Translations under genes and position numbers: made by a program
DNA from: Caldifarciminota bacterium
GTDB taxonomy: Bacteria; Hydrothermota; Tepidihabitantia; Tepidihabitantales; Tepidihabitantaceae
NCBI GenBank assembly: GCA_026397595.1
Contig: JAPLUO010000240.1
Coordinates: 1 to 32,960, forward strand
DNA length: 32,960 bases
Direction of reading: 5' to 3'
Shown: positions 1,703 to 24,325 of the stretch, one piece after another
How positions within the stretch are numbered: position 1 is the first letter of the stretch
Layout: every line of letters starts with the position of its first letter
The notes under the pieces: model-generated
Seen by the model: the letters and a program-made list of their open reading frames with translations, nothing else
What the model was told of the DNA's origin: nothing
Databases searched by the model: none

Positions 1703-4700
1703 TCAACGCGGGCTCAGGTCCATCATCATCTTACAGGCCTCGGACCGGGCGAACTCGGGCGCAAAACGCAGTAGATACGCCATGATATCATCCTGGCGCG
1801 TCTGCCCGAATATCATCCGGTAACATGCCAGCGAGCGCAGGAGCTCCGCATACCTCTCGTAGTCCCGACTCAATGGCAGCACGGGAATGTGGCGCTCTAT
1901 GCACGCCCCGTTGTCGGTCTTGAAAACCCAGTAGGGCACCAAATCGCTGGCGTCTGCCGGACGTTGCGCGCGCGCAGCGTCGAAAAGCATCTGCCAGGGA
2001 TCGCCCTGCCCGACAGCGGCAAGCTCCTTGGCGAACCGCGCGGCAACATTCTTGCGAACGGCATGTCCTTTGTAACGATGGATGCGGCCCTCGCGCTGCT
2101 CAAGGTCGACCGGGTTTGATGGAAGGTTCCAGTGGACTATCGCGTGGCAGTAGCAGTGGAAATCCAATCCCTCCTGACCTACTGACGTCGAGGTGACAAT
2201 GAAGGGCCAGAACGGAGAGTTGAAGGCCGCCCTTACTTGGTCGGCACGAACTGCAGCTCCCTCGTCAGAGGTTGGAGAGTCACCGAATCGCGTTGCGAAC
2301 CTGCAGCGCACCTGCATTGCGCCCGAGTCCACGGCAACGCGCCCGGAAGTCACCCTGATTTCGTCTATGTGGGCCGGCGCCGCCCGCAGCCCGGATGCGT
2401 CGACAACGACATCCGCGATATTGTCGACGACTTCCACTGCTGCCTTTCCGGCTGAGCCCGTGTGTTCCAGCAAGACGTGGCAGTACTCGTCCATCACGGC
2501 CTGCAGCCCGCCGGCAACGCAGTACTCGACTACCCTTCGCCAGTACGGCTCATCTCGGTTGATGCTCCTGATCATCGCGGCCGCTTCAGGCCGGTTGAAC
2601 ATCGCAAGTATGCCGTACGCCGTGCGAGCCGCGGCTGTTCGCGTCACTTCGTCATCACTCGAACCAACCAGCCGTCGCAGCGCGCGCAACATCACGACGC
2701 CGGGCGCGCCGATGCTCAGCTCCGCCAACACACGATCGATGTCCGGTGGCATCGGCCCCAACTCGATCTCCCGCTTGGGGAAGCCGGCGACCGTTTCTTT
2801 TAACTGGCGCACATGCCGTTCCCACGCAGTGTCGGCCTCGTCCTCGCCCTCGCCGGACTCGGTGTCGCCGCGCCACTCTGCAGCCAACTCGCGTCGGTCC
2901 AACCAACGCTCTGCTGACCGCCTGCGGTGGTAGATGTCCAGTAAGGCTGGCGCCGCCCAGTACCAACGTTCATCGACCACCGAACCGCCACCGGCGTACG
3001 CACGCAAGGGACGGAGCAGCGTCGAGATGCGCTGCCGCGCGGATTCGATCGCCTCCTCCTTCGTGGGCGGCGCACCTCGGGCAACCGAAGCCTGGTACAG
3101 GACTAGCGGGTCGCACTTCGAGGCCAAGACATCGGCCGGGTAGATGAGGCTCAACAACGGCATCCCGGTCAGCCGACCTTCGCTGATCGAGAAACGCAGT
3201 AGCCTCTGCTGCCGCTTCCGTGACTCGGCGGTGTTGGTAGCTTCGGCGTCGAAGGCCTTCATCATTAGTCGCTCGGCTTCGTAGCTGACTAGGGCGGCAA
3301 CGGCCTTGGGCACGACCTTCCACGACGAGAAAACCAGCCGCTTCGTCAGATTGGCTACCTCGGGGGCTCCGAACGGACCGTCTAGACGATAGTAAGGCAT
3401 CGACGGCGGCATCCACAGCAGTCGCCAGGCACCGTGGCCCACGGTGTCGCTCATTATCTTCCGCAGCCTCGCGTTCGCCGGGTCCAGGGCCCGGTACTTG
3501 CGGACGTCGGCTGAAGAAAGCAGCAACGGCAGTTCTGCGCTGACCAATCGCGCCAACTCTCCGTCATCATCCTCCTCCGCGGCAGCGATGAAGTCCTCCT
3601 TCATCGAGTAGTCGTCCATGAAATTGAGCAGGTACGGCGCCGACTTCCAGTACTCCAGCGGGGCCCGGCAGTCCAGATGCGTGGCGATTCGGTTCAGCGC
3701 GACGTACTGCTGAACATCGGTCGATTCCAGTCTCACGTCGTCGCCCAGATGCTCCCGCAACATCCCGTCACGGTCAACGGAGGCAGCCAACCGTTCGGTC
3801 CGCACCATCACACGACGTAGGCGCTCCTCCATTTCGGCTTTGACCTCATGCAGGCGCGAGGCCTTCCCAATACCAAGCAGATAGATCTCCCGCCTGTACT
3901 CGGCCAGGAGCCGACGGAAGTCCTCGGTGCTGTCCGTATTGTCCTGTAGAAACCGAAGCGTGGCGATGAAATCCTCGTAGTGATCTCCTTCCTCGCCTTC
4001 GCCGGAGATCGTGTACATTCGATAGGGCGTGGCCGACAGCAGCAACACTCGTGCCTCGGTCTGGCTGTCAGAGTAGTTGAACAGCGTCTGCGCCAAGCGG
4101 CTGGCGTCGTCCTCTCCGGTAAGCAGGTGCTTGAAGCGCTGAAACTCGTCCATAATGATCAGATCCGGTTGCAGCGCGTCCATACACGCGGCGGCGAGGA
4201 TAGAACGCAGCTCACCTACGATCTCGCGCCGCTCGCTCCACTCTTCATTTGTCGCTGGCTTGGTGCGGCAACGAAACAGCCGGCAGAGTTCTTCGAACCG
4301 GGATTTTATGCCTGGCTCGCCGACGGTCGCGTGTTCTTGGTCATGCTTTGTCAGAGCCGCTTCTAACTTCCTCACCAACTCCTTGTCATAGCCCTCTTGG
4401 CGCGTTTCCCATATCTTACCCCGGAAAGACTCCCTGTCCTCTACATTGCCCTGCAGGACGTTACACTTCCCCGTGCCGGGCAGGTGCCAGATGTCGTCCA
4501 GCATGCAGCAGAGCAGCGCGCGCTCGTCATAGCGACCCAAACCACCTTTGAGGTCGAATGACGTCCCAGGAGTGAAGGACACGAAATTAAGGGCCCGTCC
4601 TTCCAGGTCGCTCAGTGTCTTAGGCAGCAGAGTTATGCGGTCGGCCAGCTCGAACCCGACGTTCTCCGCGACGTTCAGCCGCCTGATGTTCTGGCGGGCG

Positions 4701-4954
4701 ATGTCGGCGTTTGAGCAGATGTATACTATGTCGATGCGCCCGACTCCCCTCTGCTCCAGATGCTCGATCGCCCGCGCAATTACGCCCTTGGCGACCAGCG
4801 TCTTGCCCAACCCGACTTCGTCGGCGATCAAGAACCTGCGTGTGCGGTCACCATCCAGGTACATGCGGCGGAAGACGTAGTCGACCGTCTTCCGCTGAAA
4901 ATCCTTCAGCCCGGACAGCACGTCATCGACGTCGACGAGAGGTGGCTTGCTCAC
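1703..4954 (-). CDS. SNF2/DEAD-like superfamily 2 helicase of a predicted defence operon
   Basis: This is a large SF2 ATPase of 1083 residues from the proposed GTG start. Walker A is DEVGLGKT (about 45-52), Walker B is MDEFQRF (about 268-274, DExQ-type), and motif III is LLLSATPYR (about 304-312). Near the C-terminal half, SVGQEGLDF (about 920) and LEQREGRIHRYKG (about 945) are motifs V and VI with the arginine finger. The roughly 600 residues between the two RecA-like halves have no motif I recognise. The GTG at 4954 forms a GTGA overlap with the stop of the PLD gene and has AGGGGAT eight bases upstream. A TTG start at 4981 would add nine residues. It is the last gene of the four-gene operon and would supply ATP-driven DNA translocation to the upstream nuclease. 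Confidence 0.85.
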   Translation of the reverse strand: MSKPPLVDVDDVLSGLKDFQRKTVDYVFRRMYLDGDRTRRFLIADEVGLGKTLVAKGVIARAIEHLEQRGVGRIDIVYICSNADIARQNIRRLNVAENVGFELADRITLLPKTLSDLEGRALNFVSFTPGTSFDLKGGLGRYDERALLCCMLDDIWHLPGTGKCNVLQGNVEDRESFRGKIWETRQEGYDKELVRKLEAALTKHDQEHATVGEPGIKSRFEELCRLFRCRTKPATNEEWSERREIVGELRSILAAACMDALQPDLIIMDEFQRFKHLLTGEDDASRLAQTLFNYSDSQTEARVLLLSATPYRMYTISGEGEEGDHYEDFIATLRFLQDNTDSTEDFRRLLAEYRREIYLLGIGKASRLHEVKAEMEERLRRVMVRTERLAASVDRDGMLREHLGDDVRLESTDVQQYVALNRIATHLDCRAPLEYWKSAPYLLNFMDDYSMKEDFIAAAEEDDDGELARLVSAELPLLLSSADVRKYRALDPANARLRKIMSDTVGHGAWRLLWMPPSMPYYRLDGPFGAPEVANLTKRLVFSSWKVVPKAVAALVSYEAERLMMKAFDAEATNTAESRKRQQRLLRFSISEGRLTGMPLLSLIYPADVLASKCDPLVLYQASVARGAPPTKEEAIESARQRISTLLRPLRAYAGGGSVVDERWYWAAPALLDIYHRRRSAERWLDRRELAAEWRGDTESGEGEDEADTAWERHVRQLKETVAGFPKREIELGPMPPDIDRVLAELSIGAPGVVMLRALRRLVGSSDDEVTRTAAARTAYGILAMFNRPEAAAMIRSINRDEPYWRRVVEYCVAGGLQAVMDEYCHVLLEHTGSAGKAAVEVVDNIADVVVDASGLRAAPAHIDEIRVTSGRVAVDSGAMQVRCRFATRFGDSPTSDEGAAVRADQVRAAFNSPFWPFIVTSTSVGQEGLDFHCYCHAIVHWNLPSNPVDLEQREGRIHRYKGHAVRKNVAARFAKELAAVGQGDPWQMLFDAARAQRPADASDLVPYWVFKTDNGACIERHIPVLPLSRDYERYAELLRSLACYRMIFGQTRQDDIMAYLLRFAPEFARSEACKMMMDLSPR

Positions 4955-6771
4955 TTCTTCATCCCCTGTCGTGCGGCCCAAATCGGGTTCCAGATGCGGT
5001 CGAACCCCTCGGGCAGAAGGTCGGCCTTGCCCGCCGAGCGCCGGAGGTCCGCTACGACGCGCTCGACCGCGTCGATCCTCGACGGGTCACTTGCCAGGGC
5101 TTGGAGTAGCGCCTCCAGGAGACCACTTGTGATCGAGAAACCCGGAACGCAGCCGCTTTGGCCGACCGTACCCAGCACGCTAAGGTTTGCGTCCGCTTCG
5201 GAATCGGTGTCGGCCAGCAAGAACATCAGGAAGCGCATCAACTGTTCCGGGTCATTGAGCATCGACCGGAGCACGTGTTCGCGCCGGCCCTCTGGTGCTC
5301 CCAGCAGGGGTAGGTTCAGGACGAACCGCCGTTCGAACCGACGACGCGCCTTGGTTACGGTTACCCGAAACGCAAAGAACGCGCTGAGCGCCTCGAACGA
5401 TATGCTGCCGAACGTCGCGCCAAGTCTGCGGTCCAACGGAAGCGCCACCTCCTCGGAGAGGGTGATTGGCCAACAGCGGACGTCCATGTCCTTGGGATAT
5501 GCCACCTTCGCTCGTGCGCGCAGTGTGACACGATACCCTCCGCCGTCTGCCACGGCGACATCTGCGGCCAGGTCGGCCTTGGTCAGCGCCGCCCGGACTT
5601 CTTCGGCCTGATCCTCAAGCGCCCGCTGCACTTCGTCGACCTCCGCCGGACCAGACTTCCGGGTGTACGGTTGCAGCAGCTCTCTGAACCCGGCCTGAAC
5701 CTTGCTTGGTTCCATGAGGCAGTCGATGCCCTGCCGGCTGCGTCGTCCGGACAACTCGGTCAGGAATTCGACGTTGGCGCGGAATGCAGCATCAGTCGCG
5801 TTGGCCGACCCGGTCCAGAGGCTCACATCGTAGCCCCGTTCGCCCAGGTAGAACTTAGCGTGGAGCCCGGCGAGCTCGTTATCAACGCCCCCGTCCTGCG
5901 GCTCGATCGGAACCCCGTTGTCGTCGAGGAAATAGGCTTCCTCCATCGCCTCCAGGGAGTCCGTCGGCAGCGCGTCCAAACTATCCAGCCGGGACACCAC
6001 AAGCAGCTCGTCCAACTCGTCGGCCAGCCGGCCTATGCATCCCGGCGACATGAATGGCGCGACTACCAGCATCCGGTTGCTCCCAGACCGGAAAGGCCAT
6101 GTCTTCGCGCCGTTGTGTCCCAGCGGCCAGAAGGTGAAGTCGTCGAACCCGTCCGGTGGCTCGAACCGGACCAACCTAATCTCCCTGGCAATCTCGGCAA
6201 TCCGGGATTCGATTGCGTCGGAAACGCCGTAAGTCGCGAGCCGCGGCAGACTCTCGACGAACTCTGCCAGCGGCCGGTTGACACCGTAGGGCTTGGTGCG
6301 GTCCTGCACCTCTCCTTCCAGCGACAGCGCCGTGTCCCAGGAACGGTCGAACGTCAGGTTGCGCGTCAGGCACAGGAACCGGTAGCGAACCCTGCCGTCC
6401 TGCGCCACGAACCGAAGAAGCCAAATCTTGGGGTGGAAGACTCCGCCCTCGCGCGCCGCCCCGGCCGCGACAACGGCATCCTCAAGGTAGGTCAACAGCT
6501 GGCTGCCGTGTTTGGGCAACCCAATCCGCCCTCCTTGGCAGAACACCACCATGTGCTCGGCGTAGCGGCGCACTGCCTCGAGCAGGGCGAGCGGGTCGCT
6601 GGTTACAGCGTCCTCCGCCGCATCGAACTCGAACCGGGCGAAGGCCAGCGGCACGGTAAGCAAGGTCATCAAGTCGAGCGAATAGGTCGTAGCCAGGGCA
6701 AACTCCAGGCGGAAGCCGTCCGACGGCCGCAGGATTTCCATCAAGTGGCTGCGTTCTTGCGGTTCAAGCAT
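4951..6771 (-). CDS. Phospholipase D-like (HKD) nuclease protein of the defence operon
   Basis: The 606-residue protein carries two halves of a PLD-type active site. The first is HPK (His113, Lys115) followed by LCLTRNLTFDRSWD (about 134-146). The second is LHAKFYLG (His304, Lys306) followed by TGSANATDAAF (about 320-330). The first site has Asn instead of the standard Gly/Ser-Asn phrase, so it may be a variant; the second is canonical. PLD-fold enzymes of this type cut DNA in helicase-linked systems. The ATG lies inside the end of the DUF6361-like gene (8-base overlap) and its stop overlaps the helicase start, so the three proteins are probably made in fixed proportion. The C-terminal 200 residues are unassigned. 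A non-catalytic structural role remains possible. Confidence 0.85.
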   Translation of the reverse strand: MLEPQERSHLMEILRPSDGFRLEFALATTYSLDLMTLLTVPLAFARFEFDAAEDAVTSDPLALLEAVRRYAEHMVVFCQGGRIGLPKHGSQLLTYLEDAVVAAGAAREGGVFHPKIWLLRFVAQDGRVRYRFLCLTRNLTFDRSWDTALSLEGEVQDRTKPYGVNRPLAEFVESLPRLATYGVSDAIESRIAEIAREIRLVRFEPPDGFDDFTFWPLGHNGAKTWPFRSGSNRMLVVAPFMSPGCIGRLADELDELLVVSRLDSLDALPTDSLEAMEEAYFLDDNGVPIEPQDGGVDNELAGLHAKFYLGERGYDVSLWTGSANATDAAFRANVEFLTELSGRRSRQGIDCLMEPSKVQAGFRELLQPYTRKSGPAEVDEVQRALEDQAEEVRAALTKADLAADVAVADGGGYRVTLRARAKVAYPKDMDVRCWPITLSEEVALPLDRRLGATFGSISFEALSAFFAFRVTVTKARRRFERRFVLNLPLLGAPEGRREHVLRSMLNDPEQLMRFLMFLLADTDSEADANLSVLGTVGQSGCVPGFSITSGLLEALLQALASDPSRIDAVERVVADLRRSAGKADLLPEGFDRIWNPIWAARQGMKK

Positions 6772-7996
6772 GTGGCTGCCTCTTTCGGCCTTTCAGGATA
6801 TCGCTGGTGATGGTCTGCGTCTGGTCCCAGCGGAATGCCATCTGGTCGGTCCCGGCTTCGCCGCCGCCGCTCAGCCAGTCCTCAAGCGCCCGCTGGTTAT
6901 CGAGTCTCGCCAGCCCCCTTTTCAGGAACCGCTCGCGGTTGGCGATGAGATCGCGCGCCGCGCCGTCGGCGGATACCCGTGCGGCCACTTTCGGGTTGAG
7001 TGCGAAGTTCAGCCAGGCCTCGACGAATCGCCTGGTCAGAAGCGGCACCCGCGGATTCGCCTTGGCCACCGTATTCCAAAAACCCGCCATATTCCACCCG
7101 GCGAAGCTTGCCGCCCGAGCGGACATGACGCCCGCCCATTCCTTCAGCCGACCACGGAGGTCTGCTCGCAGACCGTCTGCCTTGGCCTTCTCTGCCAGCA
7201 TCAGATTGTAGAGCAACACGGCTCCGTGCATGGATTCCGAGAAGCGCCGGGCGTGCGCGAGCTGCCCGACGATGTGGTCCGGGAATTCGCCGAACTGAGG
7301 ATGCTGCCACGGGAAGTCCCCCCTGTCGGTTGGCTTGCCTTCCCTCGCGAGGAACGCGAGCAGCGTTTCGGGGACCCGTTCGATAATCCGCTCGGACAGA
7401 TAAGTCGCCTCTTCCGCGCTTAGCTTGAAGCTGGCACCATCGGGAAAATCGTCGGGCCGACGCGGCAGGGCAGCGTGCCAGTTGCGCGACCGGGTGCCAG
7501 TCTCAGGCTCCTCGGCGTCTCCCTGCTCGTCCGCGTCGAGGCGACGATAGAAGTGATCTATCCACCGGTAGTACTGGTCCTGGCCGCCCTGGAAAAGCCG
7601 GATGCCCCACATGCCCAGCCCGAGCCAGTAGATGTTGCTCGGGAGCCGCTTCAACGACCTCTTCGCGATTCGGCCCAGAACGCCCTCGCTCTCGCCGGAC
7701 TCCAGCAGCGCCTCCACAAGGTCGGCCTCGCAGTCGCGAGCCTTGCGAGCGAAGTCGGCTGAGCGAACCCGCTTGCGCTCGAGCCGCTGGTATATCCAAG
7801 GTATGAACAGGAAATAGCGAGCGCGGGTCTGGATGGTGTTGATGCCTGGAACCAGGAGGTCGGATATCGCGTCCCTTATCGTACCAACACCCAGCTCGTC
7901 GCGCGTATCACGCTCGCCCAGCAGGTTGATAGCATCAAGCATCTGACGCCGGTGCTTCTCCGAGTAGTCAAGCCATGTGAACGCAGAGCTCAACAT
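6764..7996 (-). CDS. DUF6361-like protein of the defence operon
   Basis: This is a 410-residue soluble protein with no catalytic motif I can name. Its N-terminus, TWLDYSEKHRRQMLDAINLL then DELGVGTIRDAISDLL and TIQTRARYFLFIPWIYQRL (about 8-72), matches my memory of the DUF6361 family, found beside PLD nucleases and helicases in defence islands. The rest is rich in Arg, Trp and charged residues. The start codon sits in a TAATG overlap with the stop of the GIY-YIG-like gene. A strong SD (AGGAGG) lies in the last codons of that gene, so translation is coupled. It may be a sensor or nucleic-acid-binding subunit, but this is inferred only from position. The family name needs a profile search. Confidence 0.75.
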   Translation of the reverse strand: MLSSAFTWLDYSEKHRRQMLDAINLLGERDTRDELGVGTIRDAISDLLVPGINTIQTRARYFLFIPWIYQRLERKRVRSADFARKARDCEADLVEALLESGESEGVLGRIAKRSLKRLPSNIYWLGLGMWGIRLFQGGQDQYYRWIDHFYRRLDADEQGDAEEPETGTRSRNWHAALPRRPDDFPDGASFKLSAEEATYLSERIIERVPETLLAFLAREGKPTDRGDFPWQHPQFGEFPDHIVGQLAHARRFSESMHGAVLLYNLMLAEKAKADGLRADLRGRLKEWAGVMSARAASFAGWNMAGFWNTVAKANPRVPLLTRRFVEAWLNFALNPKVAARVSADGAARDLIANRERFLKRGLARLDNQRALEDWLSGGGEAGTDQMAFRWDQTQTITSDILKGRKRQPHA

Positions 7997-8526
7997 TACC
8001 TCCTACGGGCACGCATCACGCGGAGCTTCGGGAACTCGGCGGCGAAGGCGCGTCTGACCTGCGCGAATAGCCTTGCGTCAAGCGCCTTCCGGCTCTTCAC
8101 CACGTTCATGACGTCGTAGCCGGCTGCCTGCATCGAGTCGGCCAGAGCTTTCTCCATCGCGGCGATGACGTTGCGCCTCTGATTGTGTAGCTCCTTCGTC
8201 GTCGCTTCCTTCAGTATCGGCCCGTGTGCGACTAGACGGAACTCACAAGTCTCGGGGTCAATGCGGTGTTTATCTCTCAAGTGCCGTCGCAGCATGTTGC
8301 TGTTCTCTTGGAACCCAAGATGCTGCCCCATACGGTTGAAAGGCGACTGCGCGTTGCATGGCGGGTTGTCGCCGGTGCGCCCAACATAGTAGCGCTTCTT
8401 GCCCTTCGACGGCGCGACTTCCCACACGTAGAGCCAGAACCCGCGCTGCAGAAACTTGCCGTGGAACTCCACTTCGTGGGTCTTCGCAATCGACAGCATT
8501 CTAGTCTGCATCTCGGTCTTTGTCAT
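7996..8526 (-). CDS. GIY-YIG-like nuclease protein, first gene of the defence operon
   Basis: The 176-residue product shows a GIY-YIG-like layout. WLYVWEV (31-37) stands for the first strand, and RYYVGRTGD (45-53) supplies the YVG motif and the catalytic-type Arg50. RMGQHLG (65-71) follows, then a Glu in the AAMEKAL helix (Glu125) and the terminal GYDVMNV segment with Asn141. This fits the fold of small single-domain endonucleases, but the first motif is LYV rather than GIY, so the call is moderate. The ATG has a clear SD (GGAGG, 6 bases upstream). It also overlaps the TAA of a short upstream reading frame (8527-8603) that may be the tail of a lost gene. Co-transcription with the next three genes is almost certain from the 1-8 base overlaps. 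Confidence 0.65.
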   Translation of the reverse strand: MTKTEMQTRMLSIAKTHEVEFHGKFLQRGFWLYVWEVAPSKGKKRYYVGRTGDNPPCNAQSPFNRMGQHLGFQENSNMLRRHLRDKHRIDPETCEFRLVAHGPILKEATTKELHNQRRNVIAAMEKALADSMQAAGYDVMNVVKSRKALDARLFAQVRRAFAAEFPKLRVMRARRR

Positions 8527-8897: not shown

Positions 8898-9251
8898 GAA
8901 CACGAAGGGCAGGTGGGTCCCCACCCCAAGTCCTCCAGTGCTGAAGTACACGAGCACAGGGAGCAAGGGACAAAGGGATGAAGGGATCGAGTAAGCGGAC
9001 AGGGGTTCTGGAGGTCTGGGGTTGGCCGCTGCGGCCCCCGTCTGACGGAGCAAGGGTTCTGGCTGGAGGAGTCCGCGTCAGTCTGTGGGTGCTCAGGTCC
9101 GGTCCGTCGGGTTCGGTTCCGGTCACGCGCTTGTATACTAAGTAGGTTACAAGCCGCCGAACCGGTTTTCAGGGTTATCCGTCTGTCTGTCAAAGGGTTA
9201 GGCGCAGGAGTCGCAACTCAACACCGCCCCTGGGGAGCAGCTTAGGAAAGT

Positions 9252-9515
9252 GCTATCGAGTTGGCTTTCAAAGGAGCCCTGGAAGAAGCCTTGAAATGAG
9301 CTTTGAGTCGTGCTTTCAGAGGAGCTTTGCCGCGAGCTTTCGAGCGAGCTTTGCCGCGAGCTTTGAAATGAGCTTTGCGAGAAGCTTTGAAGTGAGCTTT
9401 TGAACGAGCTTTGAAAAGTGCTTTGAAATGAGCTTTCAAAGAAGCTCTTGAACAAGCTCTCGAAGGAACTTTGCGACGCGCTTTCTAGTGAGCTTTCTGA
9501 TGAGCTTCGATTGCG
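9252..9515. repeat. 12-bp-period tandem array, 22 degenerate units
   Basis: Twenty-two consecutive 12-base units run without a phase break. Each starts with GCTTT(G/C) and is followed by about six variable bases (examples GCTTTGAAATGA, GCTTTGCCGCGA, GCTTTCAGAGGA). Conservation is in the first half of the unit. On the minus strand no stop interrupts at least two frames, giving tetrapeptide-period translations (SSFQ/SSRQ-like or KAHF/KARG-like). A frame from ATG at 9617 to 9198 spans it, but I see no evidence that it is expressed. It is upstream of the sirtuin promoter. A second array with the same period but another core is at 27817-28068. Confidence 0.9.
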
Positions 9516-9576
9516 GTCAATTCTCTCCGGCCCTTGGCGAGCGGTTCCATTCCGGTTGCCGATGCGCTTCTGTCGT

Positions 9577-22739: not shown

Positions 22740-24279
<1,540 letters not shown>

Positions 24280-24325
24280 GCAAAATCTTAGGGGTCTGCT
24301 GCTCTGATCGAATTAACTAGTTATG

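Follow-up and report, generated by a model that had tools for sequence, protein, structure and literature searches.

The window, a stretch of 32,960 nucleotides that makes up the entire contig C457 of a 4.7-Mb Caldifarciminota bacterium genome in 494 contigs, carries a complete and apparently intact Azaca operon in the canonical order zacA-zacB-zacC, preceded by a gene (hereafter gene 4) that is translationally coupled to zacA and whose product is, by structure prediction, a GIY-YIG superfamily protein. Judged by their sequences, three of the four genes are the already described Azaca system and not a new system. We consider it probable that gene 4 supplies this operon with an extra GIY-YIG nuclease, derived from a family of restriction loci and acting as an independent add-on.

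All four genes lie on the minus strand. Gene 4 (7996..8526, 176 aa, called as an open reading frame) is the first cistron and is followed by zacA (6764..7996, 410 aa), encoding a DUF6361 protein identified by its reading frame, PADLOC and Pfam; by zacB (4951..6771, 606 aa), encoding a PLD nuclease identified by its reading frame and PADLOC; and by zacC (1703..4954, 1083 aa), encoding an SF2 SNF2/RapA-like helicase identified by PADLOC, its motifs and the junction. The zacC start was placed at the GTG at 4954, which gives the 1083 aa product, the longest open reading frame beginning at a TTG at 4981. At the junction between gene 4 and zacA (7994..8004, read from the sequence) a ribosome-binding-like AGGAGG at 8004-7999 is followed by TAATG, in which the stop codon (7998-7996) and the start codon (7996-7994) overlap by one base at 7996. 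The overlap between zacA and zacB comprises 8 bases (6764-6771), and that between zacB and zacC is the GTGA at 4951-4954. The first-pass annotation had described four overlapping genes joined by exactly these TAATG, 8-base and GTGA junctions, all of which were found where it had placed them.

A 28-bp direct tandem duplication (1583-1638, 92% matches) is located just 3' of the zacC stop. The remaining window contains ordinary chromosomal genes such as 16S rRNA, groES/groEL, ruvB and nadE (the protein genes read by eye), and no further defense genes were identified in it besides the four. The 16S rRNA gene is complete (22740-24282, minus strand) and apparently unlinked; neither a tRNA inside it nor a 23S gene elsewhere in the window gave a match at the gathering threshold.

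Azaca, composed of ZacA, ZacB and ZacC, is a described anti-phage system credited to Millman et al. 2022 in both PMC10952713 and PMC12278908; the former lists its PLD domain and the latter lists ZacC among the SF1/SF2 defense helicases. The literature that we searched yielded no mechanism for Azaca, and searches on DUF6361 returned no paper. Using the PADLOC models for the system (PDLC03828-03830), ZacA was matched with an E-value of 1.7e-127 over residues 3-403, ZacB with 2.3e-176 over nearly its full length, and ZacC with E=0 and 1155 bits over 17-1091; moreover, ZacA matched Pfam DUF6361 (PF19888) with an E-value of 8.6e-64. A single-sequence fold prediction of ZacA gave no reliable model (pLDDT 42.5). 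The near full-length matches bear out the suggestion, made in the first-pass annotation, that the DUF6361, PLD and helicase genes might correspond to Azaca.

The catalytic motifs of both enzymes are intact. ZacB has two HxK half-sites, H113/K115 and H304/K306, which are invariant in the eight ZacB sequences compared and lie within the patterns HPK...[ST]RN[LM]T and HAK...GS[AG]NAT, also found in 8/8 sequences. ZacC keeps the motifs VGLGKT (Walker A), DEFQ, SATP, S[VI]GQEGLD and QREGR, as do all eight ZacC proteins. On these features of the sequence, the locus would be expected to be active in anti-phage defense.

Helicases of DISARM, Dpd and BREX were considered as alternative identities for ZacC and discarded, the matches being limited to C-terminal motifs. 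DISARM shares with this locus the combination of an SNF2-like helicase, in its C-terminal motifs, with a PLD nuclease; however, the scores for DrmD (57 bits; NCBIfam cut-off 610) and DrmC (12 bits; cut-off 133) are far under those of the ZacC and ZacB models, and neither DrmB nor a methyltransferase gene was identified at the locus.

The product of gene 4 showed nothing beyond weak noise against Pfam, PADLOC, NCBIfam and PHROGs, and its assignment comes from structure and from conserved residues. An AlphaFold model built from a ten-sequence alignment had a pLDDT of 89.2 and a pTM of 0.84; when compared with viral models by Foldseek, GIY-YIG-type homing endonucleases were found at ranks 1, 2 and 4 (probabilities 0.97, 0.96 and 0.91). 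Among solved structures in the PDB the match was weak, with Slx1 at rank 5. The candidate catalytic residues are Y33, Y47, R65, H69, E125 and N141; Y33, Y47-V-G49, R65, H69 and E125 are invariant in the 10 aligned sequences, N141 only in the closer 8, and the family invariants can be written as RGFW-Y, YVGRTGD, R(x3)H and E. Relatives of gene 4 matched a single Pfam family, PF01541; three of the ten did so, under the curated cut-off (best E 0.036), and the protein of the window itself did not. An hhalign comparison with PF01541 domains placed Y, YVG and R-x3-H in register (P=0.0048), at a low probability of 7%. Together, model, Foldseek matches and invariant residues support the GIY-YIG-like character that the first reading had given to this gene.

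With the superfamily defined by PF01541, which includes UvrC, Slx1, phage homing endonucleases and GIY-YIG restriction enzymes, gene 4 shares the predicted fold, the order of strands and helices, and the Y/YVG/R-x3-H/E/N residues. It differs in carrying, between YVG and the catalytic R, an insert specific to its family (GRTGD-SS--A-SP), and in having ~60 extra C-terminal residues beyond the core. AbiEii (PADLOC, E=0.005) and GrpE (NCBIfam, E=0.06) were rejected as identities, both matches being weak and in disagreement with the structure; the designed repeat proteins (SAKe) returned by the PDB search were a repeat artefact. Profile searches thus divide the operon, the trio being assigned to Azaca and the GIY-YIG gene to no described system.

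The order zacA-zacB-zacC recurs in plasmids of Halomarina, Cronobacter, Niveispirillum, Bradyrhizobium, Agrobacterium and Phaeobacter and in other genomes. A profile of gene 4 had no match in any of the 14 other Azaca loci with flanks (L012-L017, L034-L037 and L051-L054), even at E-values up to 10. Conversely, the two plasmids that carry gene 4 are absent among the 40 listed of 45 plasmids with ZacA, and the stretches of those two plasmids have no Zac genes; nor was ZacA found in viral contigs at the sensitivity used. None of the other GIY-YIG homologues examined lies with Azaca, and a conserved four-gene order in unrelated genomes, for which the first-pass annotation had proposed a survey, was not found in this sample. 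The trio therefore does not need gene 4. As for the proposal that the added gene makes the locus a new variant, the extra coupled gene is real, but a recurring four-gene unit was not observed; the four-gene order was seen once, and thus the variant rests on a single case.

Both components are rare. ZacA was found in 1/147 genomes of the host phylum, 4/398 of the phylum of L004 (Accumulibacter) and 7/294 of that of L005 (Planctomycetota). Gene 4 was found in 1/147 genomes of the host phylum, and in 2/398 and 1/289 of the phyla of L004 and L006 (Opitutaceae), respectively, the seed genome being included in these last two counts. Since each is present in just one of the 147 host-phylum genomes, the distribution is consistent with horizontal gain of ZacA and gene 4 in the host; given this rarity the sample is also compatible with a small clade carrying all four genes, which may exist beyond it.

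Some Azaca loci have other genes upstream of zacA: in the alphaproteobacterial L014, L015, L016 and L036 a UvrD/RecB-like helicase and a PD-(D/E)XK nuclease lie directly upstream, those of L015 and L016 being AddAB-like by annotation. These AddAB-like genes are either a conserved neighbor or the result of an insertion beside addAB.

Relatives of gene 4 came from eight loci on genome contigs, from two plasmids, from another genome and from four viral contigs. One of the eight, L009, proved a chance match within a longer, different protein and was discarded, and L007, whose homologue is broken by frameshifts and has no clear defense neighbor, was also set aside; the homologue of L008 is frameshifted as well. 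Among the 13 loci with an intact neighborhood that were read, nine are in or beside type I restriction-modification (R-M) operons, one adjoins an MmeI-like type IIG enzyme (L010), one adjoins a Schlafen-group helicase (L005) and two are on phage-like contigs (L041 and L042). For the type I loci the evidence differs: in L038 the order hsdM-hsdS-orfX-GIY-hsdR was verified by profiles, as was the neighboring hsdR of L002, L006 and L039; in L011 the order hsdS-GIY-hsdR comes from annotation; and L003, L004, L008 and L040 were assigned from the sequence and order of their reading frames only. The gene 4 family thus mostly belongs to restriction loci and not to Azaca. The small GIY-YIG proteins of type I R-M operons such as L038 and L011 belong to the same family as gene 4, with 44-67% identity, and differ in their partners, which are HsdR motors there and ZacC here. 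In the phylogenetic tree the nearest neighbors of the window's gene 4 are the R-M-linked L002 (66%) and L003/L004, with moderate support (85/87). The literature found by search did not address GIY-YIG genes located within type I R-M operons.

In three of the type I R-M loci the GIY-YIG gene is preceded by an unannotated reading frame that we term orfX (L003:8016-8846, L004:148-1047 and L038:7943-8887), located between hsdS and the GIY-YIG gene where hsdS is in view. Its products have 276-314 aa and 40-78% identity between loci, and matched no Pfam family above noise; orfX may encode a partner for the GIY-YIG protein in type I R-M loci.

From these data we propose that ZacC would act as an ATP-driven SF2 translocase that engages foreign or abnormal DNA, that it would recruit ZacB, and that ZacB, a two-HxK PLD nuclease coupled to ZacC, would degrade the engaged DNA, with ZacA as a presumably required partner. 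The GIY-YIG protein would provide a second, independent DNA-cleaving activity, aiding defense as an add-on and not as a core Azaca subunit. Its coupling to zacA indicates that it would be made together with the system, and the position of its relatives beside HsdR motors suggests that it would serve motor-driven systems as an auxiliary nuclease; with a single Azaca locus carrying gene 4, however, recurrence lends no support to a functional link.

A different and rather unlikely arrangement is an Azaca subtype in which the GIY-YIG protein serves as a dedicated fourth subunit, so that ZacC would deliver DNA to both the PLD and the GIY-YIG nuclease, one of them perhaps nicking and the other degrading. 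The tight coupling to zacA and the intact sites of both nucleases would fit such a subunit, as would the GC3 of gene 4 (0.78, against 0.76-0.79 for the zac genes), a match expected if gene 4 and the zac genes had travelled together; nevertheless, nearby host genes have an overlapping GC3 (0.77-0.86), the family occurs with unrelated systems, and both the 14 other Azaca loci and the plasmid comparison, as described above, separate gene 4 from the trio.

The 5' fragment of an IS110-like transposase gene, recognized by eye from its translation, occupies positions 1-546 on the minus strand and is cut by the contig start, so that the assembly probably broke at a repeat. On the other side of the operon, a degenerate 12-nt tandem tract (AGCTTTGAAACG) with periods of 12, 24 and 60 lies at 9230-9530, the tandem array itself being called at 9287-9497. 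This repeat family is dispersed, with 42 matches at 69-92% identity in the host genome. Within the genus it is present in five of six genomes, each with 6-42 matches, and 0/12 genomes from other genera of the host's family have it; the open frames differ between copies, and its RNA fold was no better than those of shuffled sequences. The dispersed upstream repeat, which has no special RNA fold, was rejected as part of the defense system. The IS110 element and repeat-rich DNA that had been likened to a defense island are both present, the former as a fragment only, but a dispersed, genus-specific repeat is not a defense-island mark.

Gene 4 might instead have hitchhiked to its place upstream of zacA, as a selfish or leftover gene of homing type or a restriction-island remnant, and have no defense role here. 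This would agree with the mobility of its family across systems and phage-like contigs, with the IS110-like fragment at the contig end and with its single occurrence beside Azaca, but we hold it to be improbable, as the reading frame is intact, full length and keeps the conserved residues, and the stop codon of gene 4 overlaps the start of zacA behind an AGGAGG, an arrangement that a recent chance insertion would rarely produce.

The locus is thus a described system to which an uncommon accessory gene is joined: the three proteins, their order, the overlapping genes and the intact PLD and helicase motifs are those of Azaca elsewhere, whereas the upstream GIY-YIG gene coupled to zacA was seen at none of the other Azaca loci examined. 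It looks like a rare natural addition to Azaca, in a single case, and a natural Azaca with an extra coupled nuclease offers a handle on whether the PLD nuclease is the sole effector. The small GIY-YIG family is itself recurrent inside type I R-M operons, yet has no match to a PADLOC model. A broader reading, of which we are doubtful, is that the family is a portable nuclease, auxiliary to type I R-M, Azaca and Schlafen-type helicase systems alike, and was captured here by Azaca; if true, it would extend motor-driven systems to DNA that their main nuclease cannot cut. Should the family prove to be an auxiliary effector common to motor-based systems, it would show how defense systems exchange nuclease modules.
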